Below, piece after piece: positions 1,096-39,835 of a stretch of 53,758 nucleotides of DNA. The notes under the pieces are model-generated. The model had not been told where the DNA came from, did not search any database, and saw only the letters and a program-made list of their open reading frames with translations. Source of the stretch: Antrodiella citrinella (Eukaryota; Basidiomycota; Agaricomycetes; Polyporales; Steccherinaceae); the NCBI GenBank assembly GCA_004802725.1, contig SGPM01000181.1, forward strand, positions 1-53,758, written 5' to 3'. Each line of letters opens with the position of its first letter. Position 1 is the stretch's first letter. The position numbers and the translations under genes are program-made.

Positions 1096-4000
1096 ATGTC
1101 GATTCCGGATCCCCCATGGAAGCTCAGGAGTATGTATTCTTTGTTCAGAAAACATACAAAGGCTCGCTCTCACACCAGTCGTCACAGCGCGACCATGTCC
1201 CTTCTACTCGCAAGGGCGCTGCCTCTTCTCGGACTCGTGCAACTTCCTTCACGATGCTAAAATCAAAGTCAAGGGACCAATCTACGATGTATCCTCGATG
1301 TATGATCCCGTAGAACGCGTCGCTAGTCCACCTAGTATCCAGGTCAGCGGTGTTGCTACGCCCCCTCCGCGTACGTCTTTGGACGACATGGTACAGTCAT
1401 TTCGGTCTCCACCTCGGTCACCCAGGATGTCCAGTTTGCTCTTAGCGTTGGGAGATGCTATAGAAGTTGAGGAGGAGCCCAGTTGGTCGAATGCTCCTAC
1501 GGTGTTGGATGAGTTGGTGAACATGGTTGATGGGAAGGATGTCGAGGATGAGAGGCTAGTGGTTGAACGCGAGTTCATGCAAAGTCCACTCGTGGCAGAC
1601 TCAGAGAGCAAACGACCAGAGTTTATTCTTGTCAAGAATACAGAAGCACCACTGGTCCCGGTGCCCATTCGCGAACTCGAGGTCAAAGGCGACTCACAGA
1701 TGCTACCAGAAGAGACCGCAGAGCTCCCACGGAGAGAGTTCCCCCTCTTAGAGAATTCAGAAGATGGTTCTCCGGCTCTTGAGCTGATAGCAGAACCGAA
1801 CGTCTTGGGACAAGATGAGACCAAGACCTCGGTGACCGCACGGCCGACGACACCTTCTGTTGAAGTGAACACAGCCATACTGAGAGGTGAAGGTAGTCTT
1901 CTATCACCCATCGAGATTAGGTTGGCTGCTCCTCGTGCTGTACCTCTCGAGTCATTAGAGTCTATGTCTTCCACAAGAGAGGACTCTATCGACTCCGGGT
2001 ACGCTGACAACTGGACTGGGCCCACTCCACTCGCTATATCACCTCCTCACAGCGAGAGGCGATTTTCTACGCTGAGCATCCTCTCTTCTCCATTCGGCAC
2101 ACCGTCTTCACGTGTCATCTCCCCCACATTTGGCCCAGCGACTTCCTCAGGGTGGCCGGCAACGACACTGTTTTCTAGCGGTCCTAATGGTTTCGAGGAC
2201 GAACGCACGGATGTTGCAGAACATAACTCGGAAGCAGCAGCCGCGTTCATCAACGATTTGGATAGCCCCTCGGATTATCAACGTCGTCAGAGCACATCTT
2301 CCCTTGGCAGCTCGAAATCCGTTGTGATAGATGTAGAGGACACTGTGCGACCTCCGCTTACCTCTTCACTTCATGACGAAGGATTTGACGAGTCTTTGCC
2401 ATTCGACGAGAACGCCGCAGAATTAGCGTATGTGTTAGATTCAGACGACACCCGGCATCCCCACCAGGCCTTCACGGATGCCCATGTCGTCACTTCACCT
2501 ATGACGAGCGTCGACCTTCTACACCAGAGTTTCCCGGATGATCTCGGGCTCGCCTCTGGTCAGGAGAATATCCTATATACGTCTGCTACCTACCATTTTC
2601 CTTCCGCAGAGATAGTTGCACCACTCCTTGCAGAATCCACGTACCACTCGCATCAAGCCTTCACGAAGACCACAGATACTATCGTTACCTCTCCCTTGGA
2701 TACAAAGCAAGTTGAAGCTGACCTGACACCCCGATATGTAGTCGACGATGACCAACCAGTCCACATGACCCCGCCCAGTGCTGTGGTGCAGCCGAGCAAC
2801 CTTCTAGGCGTAGACCGAACGCTGGAGGCACACGATAGCACCGAGACGCCTTCTAGCGAGCCGTTTGCACTTGTCGACAATCACGTTGTACAAGCTCACA
2901 GCCCTTTGGATGATCCTTCGGTATTCTCCCAACCTATCAGCGACGTTGAAAATACGTCTCCAGGAGAAGAGTCCTACAGAGCGTCCTACATAGTCGGTTC
3001 TTCGCCGGATGATGATCCAGACACCAGCGGAGAACTTGTATCGTCGAACGCACCATCTCCGTTCACTAACGTCATCGAAGAGGACGATACGGATGGACCT
3101 GATGAGCCTGTCTCTCTTGCGTACTCTGATCCTGATGAGAGTGCGCCAAACATTTACGACGAATACTACTCTTCTATTCCTATTTCCCCTGCTGGATCGT
3201 ATGCTTCCTTCGCTCACGCCTTTCATGACGAGTACCCTCTCACCACTTCCACCCCTGTCAGTCGAGCACCCACTCCTTCGTCGTCTCGTACTCCGGTCTT
3301 TTCTCCTCCCGGCCAACCTAGTCCGTATTCATCCTCTGTCCGAAATTTCTCTGCACCATTCAAACTAGACTCTTCGCCTTCTCCTCATTTATCGCCTGGC
3401 TCAGCGTCTGCCATTTCTCGTCCACCTTCGCAGCTTGGTTCTGCGAAGTCGCATATGAAACCCCTCATGTCTTCTTCTCCTGTTGCTTCACAATCTCCCA
3501 TTGAAACCCCTTCATCTGCTACTTCGACCAAGGTGCCCTTCGGATTTAGGCATTCTATGCGGGCACGCTCGCGGGAATCTTCAATCAGCTCCCTCCGAAC
3601 TTTTGGTACTACTTCAGATGGCGCGCGCCGTCGCCCCTCCCGCATTGACTGGTCTTTCGCACCCGAGCATCAGCAACTCGGCTGGATCTTCACACACCAG
3701 AGAATCTGCTTTACTTTCACCTGCTCTCGTTCGCTCTGCAAGTCCTAGAAGGCTCAAGCCCCTTCGTTTGGTATGTATCTTTCTTTGCGCAAGATGATTA
3801 CTCAGACTGACAACTCTACAGTCGTTGATACTCAATTCGTCGTCGGCAACTCTTCCCTCTTCGTCGTCTGCTTTCCCGCCATCTCTGACTACTGCTAACA
3901 CTGGTCAGTAAAATTGCATCTCCCTGAAGTTTTTTTTTACCTTGACCACCTGCTTCTTTCAGCATCAACTCGTACGCCATTATCTCCCGCTGTATCATCG

Positions 4001-5978
4001 GATTATTCTATCTCTAATAATATATTGGTGAGAATATGAACGCTATTCAAGTCCTGCGTTCACGCTGATCATTGTCCTTCAAGCTCATGTCGCCACGCTC
4101 AAGCTCGATACCCGACCTTGATACCGAACTCGCCGGTCAACCACGTTCTGCCCCTGCAATGGATCATTGCCCTTCCATACCCCCTACGGATGCTATTACC
4201 CGTCGCCAGTCTTGGCAACACAGAGTATCTCGGGATTTCGACTCTAAACAATCGTCCTCGCGGCGTTCGTCGCTTGCGAATATCCCACCTTATATCCGCC
4301 CCTCAAGCAGTCTCTCTGAGCAATTGGTATCTCTGAGCGAAGAGGAGGAAGTTGATTTCGCTCCGCAATACGACGACTATGTCGCTGCAGATGAGATGGA
4401 TGACACCATTCGCGGTGACGCTCTGTTAAGTTCCCGCCCGCCTTCCGTTATGCGATCACCCGTTCACGCCATTGCGACTCCTCGGCCCACGCTCTTGTTT
4501 GCTATTGCGAGCGACGACATCAGCGAAGTTCGCCGCGTCCTGGAAAGTGGCGAATCCGGACCCAACGACGACGTCGGCCCACAGTCCGCCCTGGCGTTCG
4601 CAGTAACTACCACCCAACTGAAACACAAACAAGATATTATCAAGCTCTTGCTTGCGCACGGCGCGAACCCGTCGGGCCTGCTGAATGCTCTTCGAAGTCG
4701 TGCTACCTCTCGGTCAGTCTCTCCGTCAGAGAGTCAACCTGGCGGGAAAACACCCGCGGAACCTGCTTTGTTGGAGAATTTGGATCCTGCGACAAGATAC
4801 TTCATTTCTCGAGCTGAGGCTCCGCAAACTCGACGCGCGTCAGCTTTGATCCATCGATCATTCTTCCGCCCGTTGACCAAGGTGAGGTACGACATGATTG
4901 GACAAGACCGAGCCCTCGAACAGTTGTTCCGTGTGTTGAGTATGCCGTCTGCTGCCCCGATCGTGGTTTTGCTATGTGGTGAGTGGTGGTATACACGCAC
5001 AGCTGTTTGCGAGTAATTTGTTAATTACCGAATGATAGGTCCAAGTGGGCATGGAAAGAGCTTGTTAGCGCGAAGATGTAAGCCCTCTTTTCATTTCCCA
5101 GGCGGTACTTCTGACTGATGAGGTGATGACGCAGTTGGTTCCCTCCTCGACGTGCCCACGCATACGGTCAATATGACGACGCTTAGCTCAACACATGATA
5201 TCTGGCGTAGCTACTCAATGAGTCCATTCGAGGTATGACCCCAACGCCCACGCCTCAATATTTATTGATCATATTGCTAAGGTTGCTTCTCAGGAGCCAT
5301 CCTCATCGACGTTGGGCGATTTCCTTACCGAACATCAGAGAAAGCGTTGCGTCGTTGTGCTTGATGTGAGTCAGTATCTGGTCTGGATTGATGGACGCTA
5401 AAGTATTGCTGTGACTCTAGGAAATCGAGAAGGTAGAGGACGAAAAGTATCTATCTTCCCTCTTAATGCCGTGGGAACTTGGTCGATGTTCCTTCGGTGC
5501 TGGACAACGACATGTCGACGTGTCGAAGGTGATATGGTTGGGTACTTCTAACATTGGACATGATCTCGTCTTTGAACATCAAGCTCAGCGGGTAGCTCCC
5601 GAGGCGCCAATGACCCGAGAGGAATACGTCGACCTCATGGGTATGCTACGGCCACAAGTCTCCGATCGCCTTGGAGTGAGTGTCTATCTGTCCTACTGAA
5701 AGGCAATGAATCACTGACGCCATGCTACTCTACCCCACTCGTAGCCATCCCTCCTCTCACGGGTCACGACTGTGCTTCCATTCGTTTCTTTCTCAGATGA
5801 GGAGAAGATGGCCATTGCTGCAGAAGCGCTGCATTCGTTGACTGGAGAAGGACCTGCCTTACCTGCCGCGACTGTAGAGAAACTTGTCAAGGATTCTTTG
5901 CAGGAATATGTGCCTGCTGAAGGCGCGAGGTCTTTATATCGTGCTGTGTCGAATTTGTTACTGGATACAATTCATTGA
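1096..5978 (+). CDS. CCCH zinc finger / disordered / ankyrin / ClpB-like AAA+ ATPase protein
   Basis: Ten exons: 1096-1129, 1179-3770, 3822-3903, 3963-4027, 4084-4978, 5039-5077, 5135-5232, 5294-5365, 5421-5675, 5745-5978 (about 1,454 aa). The short first exon is needed to reach a CCCH zinc finger, CPFYSQGRCLFSDSCNFLH (C-x7-C-x5-C-x3-H), near residue 16. About 850 Ser/Pro/Asp-rich, probably disordered residues follow. Exon 5 carries ankyrin-like helices (LLLAHGANPSG). The C-terminal AAA+ module has Walker A GPSGHGKS, Walker B CVVVLDEIEK, a sensor-like WLGTSN and a ClpB-type C-terminal small domain. Ankyrin plus a single AAA+ module resembles animal Skd3/CLPB; an N-terminal RNA- or DNA-binding finger would be unusual there. 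One extra base near 3634-3660 must be skipped to stay in frame, which may be a sequencing error. Substrate and location are unknown. Confidence 0.8.
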
Positions 5979-33750: not shown

Positions 33751-36700
33751 ATGGCAACATCGACATCGACAGCGGCTATTTTCGACGACGCCGAAGTTGC
33801 CCCGCAATGTTTCGCAGCGCAGTGAGTAGTTGTTTAGCTCAAGTATCAGGATACGCCCATACTCCTCACTAACGTTCACTCAACTTCAAGGATCCATTCT
33901 CTGCTCCCTGCCGGCACTGTCAGCCTCCGCGTCGCCCCAGGCGTCACAGGCCTGCCAGTAGGCAGACTCTCCGCTACGCATGCCGAACTCGCTCAATTCG
34001 CAGACGTCCAAGATGCGGCATTCTTCCTTCAAGCCATCTTCTTCCTCGTCAAACACGAGTTCGTCGCCATTCAGTGCGCAGCAGCGCAAGTCGTGCTGGG
34101 CGGTCCCGGTTTGCTACGGATACTTGTTCGGATCTATCTGATTCCGTACGACCTCCCGAACGTTGGAGGTCGGCTGCGCGTCCATGTAAGAGAGCAGAAG
34201 GTCTTACCTATGGCGCGTAAACAGCTGCATGCTCTTTTAGCTTGTGTTTCTCGGAATCGGCAAGAGTGGGATGGTGATCTATGTCATCCGTCAAGACTCT
34301 TGTCGGAGCCGTTCCTCACTAACGACGTGGTAAGTGAATCTACGTCTACACTTGTGATTCACAGAGCCTTGTTTTGACTGGTATGGCAATAGGATAATAG
34401 CACCATGGCAGAACTCTACAGTACTTTAGACTCGCCAAACCCAGTTGATCCTCCCATTCAGCTGAACGACCTGTTGAACGACGGCCGGCTCCTCGGGATG
34501 CGAACCACCCTGTATCCTTACCAATGCCGATCCGTGGAGGCGATGATATGTCGCGAGCTCAAGCAGCATGCGGTCCCCAATCCGCTTTACATCCCGGTCC
34601 ATGGCGTCGACGGCTCGCACCAGTACTATCTGCAGCCCGGAACACTGGAGATTTTGAGCACACAGCCTATTGTTCCGTCGAGCAAGGGCGGCATGCTTTG
34701 TGAGGAACTTGGTAGCGATCCATTTGCGATGTTCCTATCTGTCGAGCTCTCGCTGACCTGTACTTCAGGGACCGGGAAGACCGTCATGGTCTTGGCTCTC
34801 ATCCACGCCACGCTACACCAACTTCCGAAGCCAGAGGTATCTCCACTAAGTGACTGCGCAGTACTCACACCTCTGTCTCTCCGGGCTTTCTCGCTCACCG
34901 ACGACGTCTGCGCTCGCCAACTAGGCAATGTCCGTACTCCACCCTCTCCGTTCATACCCTCCCTGCGCGAATTCTTGATACAATACTGCACGACCCAGCC
35001 TATCGGTCTCAGTATCCAACAATTCCAAGATGCCATCCCCGACCAACAGCTCGCTCTCGCTCTAACCCGAAATGTTCCTTTCTATTTCCACTATGACGCC
35101 GACGCTACGGTATTCTCTTCAGGACGTGCCAGTGGCCAGAGGCGGAGAACGGAGCCGACTCCTCAGAAATTGTTCATCAGCGCGGCGACTCTGGTGGTGG
35201 TTCCCTCCAATTTGTTGAACCAGTGGCAGAATGAGATCTATAAGCATTGCGACGACTCGTTTCGCTGTTTGATGGTCCGAGACAGTGCACCTTTGCCTGC
35301 AGGAGTCGTTTTGGCGAAGTCTTATGATGTGAGTGCCAGTGTTTTTGTGTGTGCAGTGTGCGTGTGCGTGAACAGAAACTCATTTTGCATCCAGATCATC
35401 CTTATGAGCCATTCCAGTAAGTTTGTATGGCTCCATTGTCGTCCTTCTGTTGATGTTTCGTTCTAGGGTTCTCTGCTGAGGCATCAAAAGGCAAGGCTTC
35501 CCAGCAGCAGAAATGGACTATCTGCAAATGCCCCTCTATCCATCCCAAGATCAGAGTCCCTGACTGTCAGTGTCATACTCAGTCAGCCCTCTCACCTCTT
35601 CTACATATTAGATGGAAAAGACTTGTGGTTGATGAAGGCCATGTGTCTTCTAACATCACTGGGAACCTGACCTCATTTGCAAAGATGTTGAGTGTAGAGA
35701 GGAAGTGGCTTGTCACTGGCACTCCTACTAGTATGTGCCTTTGTTCTGGTGGTTTAGCATCACTCTGATTATTCTCTGCAGCTAACCTCATGGGGTTGAA
35801 GTTTGGAGATGGCACTCAGTCAGAGCTGCAGTACCCAGATGAACCTGCTATTGATCAGGTAACTCCATCCTTTGAAAGCCCTCAGTGTGAAATCCTGGAC
35901 TGATCCATTCTTGAACAGCTTCAGTATCCAGACCCATCTGTTGACTCCAGCTTCTCCCTCACCTCTCAAGCTTGGACTCCAGCTGATAGAGAAGACATGA
36001 AGAAGCTTGCCAACATGATGACCCATTTTCTTGAGATTGATCCTTTTGCATCTGACTCCAAGATGTTCACCACTCATGTGATAGCACCCTTACTGGACAG
36101 TGCAGGTCCTAGGCCTGGTTCCATTCAGGTACTGAAGCAGGTCATGAACATGGTCATGATCAGACATAGGTAAGCTTCAATAATTCTTAACCTTGGTAAA
36201 CTATTTTGTTGACATTGATTGCTCGCAGGAGTGATGATGTTGAGGCAGATATCCTCTTGCCTGTGATGAAACATGAGACTGTTCTGCTAGATCTGGAGGA
36301 GTATGGGGTGAGAAGCTACAACATGTTGCAGGCAGCTATCACCATCAATGCAGTTGATTCAGAAAGAAAGGACATAGTATGTGACATTTGTCTCACAAAT
36401 CCCTATCCTTGAATTGCTCACACTATCCATAGGACTATCTCTTCAATTCCAGAGTATGTGATTACCCACAGTTATCCATTTCTACTGACTGATTTGTCTT
36501 CAGAATAGAGGTCATCTTTTGCAAACTATTGAAAACATGTCTCAGTAAGTATCTGAGTCTCTCTATTCATGGTTCTTCATGAGCTCACCAACTCTTGGCA
36601 GAGCTATGTTCTGGCATAGAGATGAAGATTTGATGAATATCAATGAACTGTTTGCAAGAAAGGATACATACAAGGAGAAAGCTCAGACAAGTGATTGGGT

Positions 36701-37992
36701 CTCCACCCAGGATCAGGCACTTCTGGATCAAGCCATATCTGTGATGTGAGTTGCCACAGCTCCACCTTCTGAAGTCCTCAGCTCATGCTCAACTATTCAT
36801 AGTGAAGATGCCATGGCCAACTCTATCTGGAAGGCCCTGAATCAGCATATCTTTGTCTACCATCAAGTGGCTGGCATCCCTCCAACATTCACTGGTGAAG
36901 GTGGCTGGGCTGAGAAGATACCCCCAAGAGTCTCATCATCTGAAGACTCCCTGGTTTTTTGCACACCAGAATGGCTGGTGAAAGCCCCAAAGGAAGAGCT
37001 GGTGGACCTGCTTGACAGATCTCAGCCTGGTCCAGTCATACGAAACTCGACGTCTTCGAAGCTGAATTATATATTGAAAGAGGTCAGTCTGCTTATAGCT
37101 CGCAACAAGAGGTCCATGCTGAGGGTGTCGCAGGTCATGACACATGCAAAGGAGGACAAGATCCTCATCTTCTCAAAGTCCCCGCTAACGTTGGCGTACA
37201 TCGCCGAATCTCTGGAACTCCTCAAAGTCAAGTCGTTGATCTTCACGTCGAAAGTCCCGCTCAGAGAGAGGGAGCAAAACGTCACGACGTTCGAAACATC
37301 AGACCTCTATAGAATATTCTTGATGGAGCTGAAGCACGGCGCGCGTGGACTGTAAGCCATCATTCGATACTTGAACAGAGATATAACAGCTGACGACTTA
37401 CCCACAGGAATCTCATCACTGCGAGTCGCGTTATATTCTGCGAGCCCGTATGGCAGGCAGATGTTGAGACGCAGGCCATCAAGGTCCGTGATATACGTGT
37501 GTGTCGAGACCTCAAGACGCAGCTAATTCGCGTTGAATTTTAGCGAGTGCATCGTATAGGACAAACGAAGCCTGTTCAAGGTGAGTAACAGTCTCATTGA
37601 TTAGACTGTCTTTATAATTCACCCACGGTGTCATCCAGTCAAGACATTGGCCATCCGCTCAACGTTTGAAGAGCTCATGCTTTCGCAAAGGCAGAAGGGA
37701 GATAGCGAAGACGCTCCGAAACACACAAAGGCCGTCGCTGACGACCACACCATGAGGGATTTCATCGCCGTAAGTCACCTCTGAGCAGGATTGGCCGGAT
37801 GTGCTCGCTGACCGAATATGACAGAATCCCACTTTCTTGCCTATACCCACAACTGGAGCGGTGTCGATATCGAACGCGTCGATTGAGATCCCGCTTGTCG
37901 AGCCTAGAAAGTTGGATCAACGAGAAGCAGTCCCGGAGTCACTACCAGATCCACCGCCATTGAAGAAAGTCCGGATGGTACATTTTGCATGA
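33751..37992 (+). CDS. SNF2-family DNA-dependent ATPase/helicase-like protein
   Basis: Seventeen exons (33751-33821, 33891-34329, 34393-34711, 34769-35328, 35395-35416, 35467-35730, 35782-35858, 35919-36169, 36229-36376, 36433-36453, 36504-36544, 36602-36745, 36803-37351, 37408-37483, 37544-37580, 37639-37769, 37825-37992) give exactly 1,105 aa. SNF2 motifs are in order: P-loop EELGTGKT (about 277, made by splicing a 57-nt stop-free intron 34712-34768), [12 protein letters not shown] (Ia), VVDEGH (II, about 526), LVTGTPT (III), a helicase C half ([13 protein letters not shown]) and [12 protein letters not shown] (VI, about 995). This suggests a nuclear remodeller or translocase. The part from 35461 to 37040 is almost free of CpG, unlike both ends, yet frame and splice sites are intact. 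Confidence 0.88.
35461..37040. other. CpG desert inside the SNF2-family gene
   Basis: Counting by eye, these 1,580 nt contain one CpG (36224-36225). The 240 nt to the left (35041-35280) contain 18 and the 240 nt to the right (37081-37320) contain 15. TpG and CpA are abundant. The block spans six complete exons (the sixth to twelfth exons except the partial thirteenth), parts of others and all introns between them, so it is not explained by amino acid or codon choice. Frame and splice sites are intact, and both edges are abrupt; the left edge lies 6 nt before an exon start. Confidence 0.9.
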
Positions 37993-38313
37993 ATTGGCGC
38001 GAGAACAGATTTGAAGAGTCTTGAGCTGTACATATGTATCCATGTTTCCGCGTTGCATGCAGTGTATCCTGCAGATAGATATAGACGCAAAGAAATCAAT
38101 GTGTAGAATAGAGTGACAGTCCATCGTGGTGAAGAGCGAAGGCGATCGACGCGTCTGACTCTGAGTGCTCGGTCGGAAAGCGGTGGAAAGTTCTGGAGAG
38201 CGCGCCGACTGACAGCATACATAATCCTCCCTCTTCCTCTTGCCTTGAACCTCGATTTTTCTCTCATCTCGTTCTCATATTCTGTTCCTCTACGTCGTCT
38301 AGTGTTGTCAACG
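37993..38313. promoter_or_regulatory. intergenic region / Aha1 promoter
   Basis: A 321-nt interval between two plus-strand genes. A pyrimidine-rich stretch (38226-38290) precedes the Aha1 start codon, as is common in fungal leaders. No other element was recognised. Confidence 0.45.
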
Positions 38314-39835
38314 ATGGCGTCGATCCCGCAGCCCATGGCTCCGACCACTGCAAACTGGCACTGGAAGAACAAAAATGTGACGCCATGGGCAAAGTCATGG
38401 TTTGAGCGCGAATTGGTCACCGTCTCGGTCGATGGCGATGGCGAGGAGCAAGCTGAGATTTCAGAAGTGACTTACATGGAGGGAGATGTCGAATTGGGTC
38501 AGCGAAAGTCCAAGTGCGTACTCTGATTTTGTCCAGACGAGACTAGATTGGAATTCATATACATCCTCCCTCTCATCTCCGGATATCTTCCACGTCAATC
38601 TTCAACACCTACCATGTTTTACCAGACTCATCACCATATACGATTGCAAGGTCGAGCTGAAGTGGAAGGGCACCGCGTCCGATGGTACGGCTGTCGAGGG
38701 CAAACTGACTATTCCTGAGGTATCGCATGAGATCACCTTGGATGGTCTTTCGGATTATGTCGTACGTCTCTGTCTCTTCTTCAGATAAAAGCCTTGCTCA
38801 CGACTCACCTTTGTCAGTACGACTGGTCTCTCACCACCTCGTCATCTGGCCCCGTAGATGCAGTCTACAAACTGGCCCGATCCCGTCTGCCCGCCTTACT
38901 CGAAGCCAAGTTTACCCAGTTTGCCGCTGCCCTCGTCGACACGCATGGCAAGGATCTCCAGGTGAACAGTACCCAAACAAGTCGTACCGGAACACCTGCC
39001 CCTACTCCCGCCCCGTCCACGTCGACTTCAACTGCTCAGGCTGCCGCTGCCCCCGCTAAACCTGCTCCGAAGAAGGCTCCGGCTAAGCTGAACAGCTCCA
39101 CCGTCAAGGTGGACGCTACGTTCATGGCCTCTGCTGACGACTTGTTCTCTATCTTGACGGATGAGAAGAGGATACCTCAATGGACGCGTGCTCCTGCTCA
39201 GGTGAGCTTCCAGTCCTTTCATATGATCTCGTCTGAGTGATTGACTTGCTGGATGTAGTCCGCTGCTAAAGCCGATACGGAGTATTCCCTGTTCGGAGGA
39301 GGTGTGAAGGGCAAGTACATCCTCCTGTCGCCACCGAAGGAGATCATCCAGACTTGGGCACTGCAAAGCCCAACCTGGCCGGAGGGTAAATACTCCCCAC
39401 CTAGCCTCATTTACTACAATAAGCTAACGTGATGGGCTTGTAAGGCCATTCCGCTACCCTCACCACGACGATTGTCCAGTCGAGCGACTCCACCGCGGTC
39501 ACCTGGACCCTCGACGGTGTCCCCCTTGGCCTGGAAGACGAGATCACGCGCAACATCCAAGGATACTAGTACGTTGCACATGCGTCCCTGCCCGCCTCAA
39601 TTAAATCCTGACTTACGTTGTTTGCAGCGTTCACGGTCTCAAGTCCATCGGGTACGTCCAAGTCTCTCATTACACCCCCGCTCCTCCTGCTCCCCCATCG
39701 ACGAAACGCGCCTCGATGCGGTCGTCGTCTGCTCCGACTTCTTCTATCACGTCGTCGCCGCAGCCGTATGTCGCTGTCGCCGTTGCGGTGCTCGTGCTCG
39801 TAGCCGCGTTCACTCTACCATACGTCTACAAGTAA
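38314..39835 (+). CDS. AHA1: Aha1-type Hsp90 co-chaperone with predicted C-terminal membrane anchor
   Basis: Six exons: 38314-38513, 38626-38761, 38818-39201, 39259-39385, 39445-39568, 39628-39835; exactly 392 aa. The N-terminal Aha1 domain is clear (NWHWKNKNVTPWAKSWFE, then LITIYDCKVELKWKG). A Pro/Ala/Thr linker follows, then the AHSA1 domain (VDATFMASADDLFSILTDEK, VTWTLDGVPLGLEDE). Aha1 binds the Hsp90 middle domain and stimulates its ATPase. Known Aha1 proteins end shortly after the position of YVHGLKSIG. Here the frame goes on for about 60 residues into a Ser/Pro-rich spacer and a hydrophobic helix (YVAVAVAVLVLVAAFTLPYV) ending in YK, as in a tail-anchored protein. A strong GTACGT donor lies right after KSIG, so an alternative spliced end without the helix is possible. 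Confidence 0.88.

Follow-up and report, generated by a model that had tools for sequence, protein, structure and literature searches.

In the polypore Antrodiella citrinella, we describe a block almost devoid of CpG inside an intact gene of the SNF2 family. The block covers positions 35461-37040 of the window (the whole stretch analysed, 53,758 nt) and contains, by direct count, a single CpG in 1,580 nt, an observed/expected ratio (o/e) of 0.012. The window as a whole holds 3,665 CpG (o/e 1.02), so the surroundings of the block are normal, and at the mean rate of the window the log10 probability of finding at most one CpG in 1,580 nt is -44.7. Our tentatively favoured view is that of an old segment with sharp bounds, probably targeted by CpG methylation, which has been purged of CpG by decay combined with counter-selection; passive decay as the full cause does not fully fit the data.

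Both edges of the block are sharp. The last CpG on the left (35459) lies inside intron 5, and the first on the right (37041) lies in the middle of exon 13, where it opens a group of four CpG within 18 nt (37041-37058). The sole internal CpG, at 36224, is in intron 8. The loss concerns coding and non-coding sequence: the exons of the block (1,184 nt) carry no CpG, and those of the flanks carry 165 in 2,083 nt; the introns of the block have 1 in 396 nt, compared with 25 in 579 nt for the flank introns. When the protein encoded by the block was recoded with the codon usage of the flanks, 77.3 ± 6.4 CpG were expected (minimum 57 in 2,000 draws), where 0 are observed. A preliminary description had reported this single CpG in an intact SNF2-family gene, its loss from exons and introns alike, frequent TpG and CpA, and abrupt edges. 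All of these points were borne out by the recount and by the gene model, as was the figure of 15 CpG in 37081-37320; the 18 CpG given for 35041-35280 are in fact 19.

The dinucleotides expected from CpG decay are enriched in the block, with o/e values of 1.53 for TpG and 1.43 for CpA (1.08 and 1.15 in the flanks of the gene) and near-equal counts of 149 TG and 141 CA. As TpG and CpA are raised about equally, both strands must be affected, which argues against RNA editing or any other one-strand process. In exons, TpG and CpA together reach 187 per kb in the block versus 131 in the flanks; in introns they are hardly raised (172 versus 166), and base composition alone predicts fewer in the introns of the block than are seen.

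These values suit an explanation by passive decay, in which a bounded methylated domain would have lost its CpG through deamination to TpG and CpA while purifying selection acted on the protein only. The GC content of the block (0.465) fits this as well as it fits avoidance of CpG (0.463 predicted by decay, 0.461 by avoidance with the codon usage of the flanks). The codons, however, depart from it. All 16 arginine codons of the block are AGR (AGA or AGG), a form taken by 12 of 41 in the flanks (P = 5e-7), and the contrast holds at conserved arginine columns, with AGR at all 8 in the block and at 7 of 21 in the flanks (P = 0.002). Since C-to-T or G-to-A at the CpG of a CGN codon never yields AGR, this composition stands against plain decay, which leaves 11.3 CpG on average (minimum 6 in 2,000 draws), mostly as CGN, where none is observed. 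Moreover, NCA accounts for 19 of the 71 NCN codons not followed by G (0.27); one-step decay predicts 0.53 and avoidance 0.26, so that this share, too, speaks against plain decay. Outside CpG contexts, third positions are close to those of the flanks (two-fold pyrimidine sites, P = 0.50; K/E/Q, P = 0.75; V/L/G, P = 0.09). The protein has changed at the pace of the flanks, with 134 of 165 conserved non-arginine columns kept in the block and 238 of 292 in the flanks, and missense changes of CpG type show no excess (6 of 83 changes over 277 sites, against 11 of 132 over 473 sites). In its arginine codons and its NCA share, the block lacks the pattern of a passively decayed gene body, in which lost CpG stand as TpG or CpA and CpG is kept at essential residues. 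We consider passive decay alone quite unlikely. The CpG-to-TpG decay put forward as the cause in the preliminary description is upheld as far as the two-strand excess and the TpG at codon boundaries (see below) are concerned, and is contradicted by the uniform AGR codons, the missing NCA excess and the ordinary missense rate. Among its options, that of a methylation domain with precise borders, held under purifying selection, comes nearest to our results, but the codon data also ask for selection against CpG itself.

We also simulated the codon evolution of the block protein, allowing nothing but synonymous steps and using the codon preferences of the flanks (12 or 40 runs per setting). With CpG mutability raised x100-1000 and no selection, 11-13 CpG were left on average, mostly CGN (about 10-12 CGN codons), with NCA at 0.50-0.54 at every time tried (12-run set); a lower transition bias left 14-18 CpG (40-run set). 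Decay alone hence leaves 11-18 CpG on average at these mutabilities, against the observed 0. Selection with a scaled coefficient (2Nes) of at least 6 on each CpG brought CpG down to 0.4-3.4 and NCA to 0.33-0.37 over 3-8 neutral substitutions per site. Clearing took about eight substitutions per site at 2Nes 6-8, and at 2Nes = 50 with three neutral substitutions per site zero CpG was reached in 8-14 of 40 runs. Selection clears CGN slowly because CGC and CGT need two steps. Weak selection (2Nes 2) was also tried and did not clear CpG. The nearest simulation overall was a mixture (x100, 2Nes 8, t = 3), with 2.7 CpG, NCA 0.33 and 50.9 TpG at codon boundaries.

Several points weigh against decay combined with counter-selection. 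The 55 TpG observed at codon boundaries fit decay (54.8 ± 3.9) better than pure avoidance (47.3 ± 3.8 under a model that applies the codon usage of the flanks and looks ahead to the next codon). Relative to this avoidance model, TG and TC stand nearly 3 standard deviations above and TA nearly 3 below, so either decay contributes or the flank model is imperfect. Arginine is retained at 8 of 14 conserved columns, the lowest value among the eight proteins compared (10-14 of 14 in the others), as is also expected from decay of CGN; retention in the flanks is low as well (21 of 32), and a single CpG transition can explain 3 of the 6 arginines lost in the block and 6 of the 11 lost in the flanks. 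The simulations that fit have an average NCA above the observed 0.27, a value reached by 3-5 of 40 runs (40-run set with selection, t = 3). In the model, full loss of CGN requires long times, and the dating is loose because all amino acids are fixed there, yet only 8 of the 16 arginines lie at conserved arginine columns. Finally, we infer the methylation step, and fungi are described as having largely lost gene-body methylation (PMC13297926).

Could the avoidance of CpG act on codons or on the messenger? Selection at this level against CpG in one part of the transcript would fit the exons, where avoidance goes with near-native codon use. Since the introns have lost their CpG as well, the pressure acts on DNA; this loss speaks against an effect on translation or on the mature mRNA, and the right edge falls in mid-exon. 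We regard selection on codons or mRNA as most improbable.

Under the combined action of decay and counter-selection, CpG methylation would have been directed to the segment, and perhaps still is, by small RNAs or by a former duplicate, for instance a copy on a mobile element. The edges of the block would be the limits of the targeted segment, and targeting by small interfering RNA (siRNA) or by a former duplicate would set them sharply. DNMT5- or DNMT1-type enzymes may keep such a segment methylated; its methylated CpG would mutate fast, and the remaining ones would be counter-selected, either for the loss of expression that methylation brings or for the damaged alleles that a CpG at an essential codon continues to yield. 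In Pleurotus, lower expression accompanies the methylation of gene bodies and siRNA clusters in genes show high methylation (PMC5974365), and CpG methylation in basidiomycetes is reported to be maintained by DNMT1-RFD and DNMT5 (PMC13297926). Judging from its genome sequence, A. citrinella seems equipped for CpG methylation. On contig C164, a DNMT5-like gene matches PF00145 (36.5 bits) and PF00176 (70.5 bits), each in its own frame on the same strand of the piece read (L037); these are unspliced frames only, and a RING match of 23.7 bits stays below its cut-off of 27.9. A further cytosine-methyltransferase gene, on contig C21, matches PF00145 above the cut-off. Seven matches to Tet/JBP dioxygenases (on C470, C486 and other contigs) were also seen, two of them above the cut-off, so that oxidation of 5-methylcytosine may be possible in this fungus.

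The C21 gene contains a second block. Positions 2436-4502 of this contig (L038 1836-3000 and L039 1-902, the two pieces together being C21:601-4560) hold 5 CpG in 2,067 nt, where 105.7 are expected from their own base composition, and adjoin 1,835 nt with 186 CpG (o/e 1.17). This block lies inside an intact-looking cytosine-methyltransferase gene (PF00145, minus strand), which we take, from its motifs, to be of DNMT1 type. Its frames were read without a spliced model and are stop-free through the methylase motifs; the two pieces read upstream gave no Pfam match. Arginine codons are AGR in 10 of 11 cases in the four pieces read in the block, against 4 of 10 in three flank pieces. Unlike the first block, it is strand-uneven (149 TG and 230 CA on the plus strand). 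With 1,164 nt of it as query, a single place was matched, and its upstream edge is at or beyond the end of the sequence read. This gene was picked for its function, and the finding therefore makes no statement on how frequent such blocks are. A bolder proposal, possible but doubtful, is that both are "armour" blocks, that is, segments in the core of certain genes, one of them a cytosine-methyltransferase gene, which are targeted by methylation again and again and have been recoded by selection to near-zero CpG. If true, they would be immune to silencing and to methylation-driven mutation, with the protein unchanged.

We also considered that the block in the SNF2-family gene has come from elsewhere, by gene conversion or introgression from a copy or close relative that has long been CpG-free. 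Its sharp edges, the right one in mid-exon, and its equilibrium-like codons would suit such a replacement. The genome searched, in which the window is contig C92, has 602 contigs totalling 30.0 Mb, against 1,228 contigs and 33 Mb for the published assembly (PMC12878558); about 3 Mb of the latter fall outside the search, and a copy there would be missed. Neither the DNA nor the protein of the block found a second copy in the 30.0 Mb, each returning this single place; the full-length homologue P0002, used as query, also gave helicase-domain matches in other SNF2-type genes. A plasmid search gave no match, comparison with the sampled stretches and the window flanks gave only two matches (27 and 31 nt, E > 0.1), and scans of viral and prokaryote contigs for DNA of a relative gave 6 and 56 pattern matches, respectively, none of them a relative.

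The homologues point in the same direction for all parts of the gene. Steccherinum ochraceum ranks first among 59 homologues for the N-terminal flank, the block and the C-terminal flank, with identities of 52.8%, 54.4% and 76.8% (the last over 95 columns). Trees of the three segments, built from 22 chosen homologues and the query, all group the query with P0003, P0002 and P0010, with support in the Shimodaira-Hasegawa-like approximate likelihood ratio test (SH-aLRT) of 100, 100 and 94. The branching order inside this four-protein group differs among the segment trees, as a donor from the same clade would allow. With the block in single copy in the searched assembly and its nearest relatives the same as those of the flanks, a distant donor and a paralogous one are unsupported; a paralogue matching only the block, for which the preliminary description proposed a search, did not turn up there. 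Replacement would only shift the question to the donor, and the choice of codons outside CpG remains close to that of the flanks. Replacement seems unlikely to us. The assembly is a short-read Ion Torrent one (PMC12878558), which would leave room for an artefact or contamination; frame, splice sites and homology continue across both edges and the nearest relatives are the same throughout, so that an artefact is hardly credible, in agreement with the preliminary description.

A recent burst resembling repeat-induced point mutation (RIP) or methylation induced premeiotically (MIP), after a duplication whose second copy was lost or left unassembled, would likewise give sharp edges, and the missing copy could lie in the difference between the 30.0 Mb searched and the published 33 Mb. 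The genome does contain a CpG-poor multi-copy repeat. The block shows no stops, no excess of missense changes or of NCA, and no CGN left, and such a burst is very unlikely. The repeat came to light in a sample of 293,748 readable bases (the window plus 25 stretches of 10 kb, one nearly all N; about 1% of the genome), picked by contig number with 15 of the 25 at contig starts and thus not random. In this sample, the two halves of the block (815 and 763 nt) are the longest CpG-free runs, and the next longest (568 nt) lies in the repeat (L014). Positions 2565-3313 of that stretch (contig C30) hold 2 CpG in 749 nt, and a search with the repeat gave 12 matches, five of them near-full-length copies (query copy included) with 99-100% identity. 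These copies appear to be young, but the one read is already poor in CpG, so that the depletion probably came before they spread. In three other SNF2-type loci and in the DNMT5-like gene, the longest CpG-free runs measure 74-91 nt. No report of CpG-free blocks inside intact fungal genes was found among the papers listed in literature searches, judged by title and opening of the abstract, which is weak evidence of absence.

The gene that carries the block (33751-37992, plus strand; Table 1) encodes a SNF2-family ATPase of 1,088 aa in 18 exons, with intact frames and splice sites. Its protein matches PF00176 with 119 bits (cut-off 24.9) and PF00271 with 49.5 bits (cut-off 23.5), which places it in the SNF2 family; the Pfam search, the homologue search and the homologue alignment used an earlier model of 1,105 aa, in which one 51-nt intron (17 aa) was retained. 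Searches of solved structures and NCBIfam returned general SNF2 relatives only, the best PDB match being RAD5 (query P0002). No long antisense frame was found in the block, where the longest stop-free stretch has 89 codons. The best protein match, P0001, is the public model of the same A. citrinella gene. It fuses this gene with the downstream one (window 33751-39835; PF08327 and PF09229 domains) and omits the portion of the exon that encodes the DEGH and TGTP motifs, which is part of the block; by our reading, the region of P0001 holds two genes rather than one. In the alignment, the two nearest homologues have a linker of some 95-100 aa ahead of the helicase C domain that is absent here, the gap falling at window 36940-37040, just left of the right edge of the block.

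Table 1. Positions in the window of the block, its edges and the exons concerned
Feature	Position	Strand	Basis
CpG-free block, 1 CpG in 1,580 nt	35461..37040		direct count
Only CpG of the block, in intron 8 (36170-36228)	36224..36225		count and gene model
Intron 5, holds the left edge (last CpG 35459)	35417..35466	+	count and gene model
Host gene, SNF2-rel_dom and Helicase_C above Pfam cut-offs	33751..37992	+	splice sites, homologues, Pfam
Exon 6, DEGH and TGTP motifs, 0 CpG	35467..35730	+	gene model
Exon 7, 0 CpG	35782..35858	+	count and gene model
Exon 8, 0 CpG	35919..36169	+	count and gene model
Exon 9, 0 CpG	36229..36376	+	count and gene model
Exon 10, 0 CpG	36433..36453	+	count and gene model
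Exon 11, 0 CpG	36504..36544	+	count and gene model
Exon 12, 0 CpG	36602..36745	+	count and gene model
Exon 13, contains the right edge (37040/37041)	36803..37082	+	count and gene model

CpG depletion is usually read as a passive scar of methylation. Here, the codons of the block separate the mutation of methylated CpG from selection against CpG, two forces not easily distinguished, within one gene whose flanks serve as a built-in control. With a second such block in a methyltransferase gene of the 30-Mb assembly, there is a direct handle on the question whether genes may escape methylation through loss of its target.

Among known systems, transposons of basidiomycetes are described as showing CpG-signature decay, with a MIP-like process and the Masc2/DNMT1 class (PMC4352252). 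The block resembles them in its loss of CpG with gain of TpG and CpA on two strands, and the genome has cytosine-methyltransferase genes; unlike them, it lies in a single-copy intact gene without coding decay, has sharp mid-gene edges and is also without CGN and NCG. Under RIP, a duplicate that set the target should leave sharp borders, and the block has such borders; in contrast to RIP, it has no duplicate in the searched assembly, no stops and a conserved protein. Of the marks of RIP or MIP repeats, the two-strand loss of CpG (or CpA) to TpG and CpA is present, clearly in exons and to a small extent in introns, whereas presence in more than one copy (in the searched assembly) and damage to the frame by C-to-T changes are not. 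Gene-body methylation in animals and plants depletes CpG in transcribed sequence under purifying selection, as in the block, where, unlike in those gene bodies, the loss is near-total and restricted to mid-gene while the CpG o/e of the window is near 1. Finally, in Cryptococcus, DNMT5 has maintained CpG methylation over 50-150 million years (PMC13297926); the DNMT5-like gene of A. citrinella could in like manner keep a bounded domain methylated.

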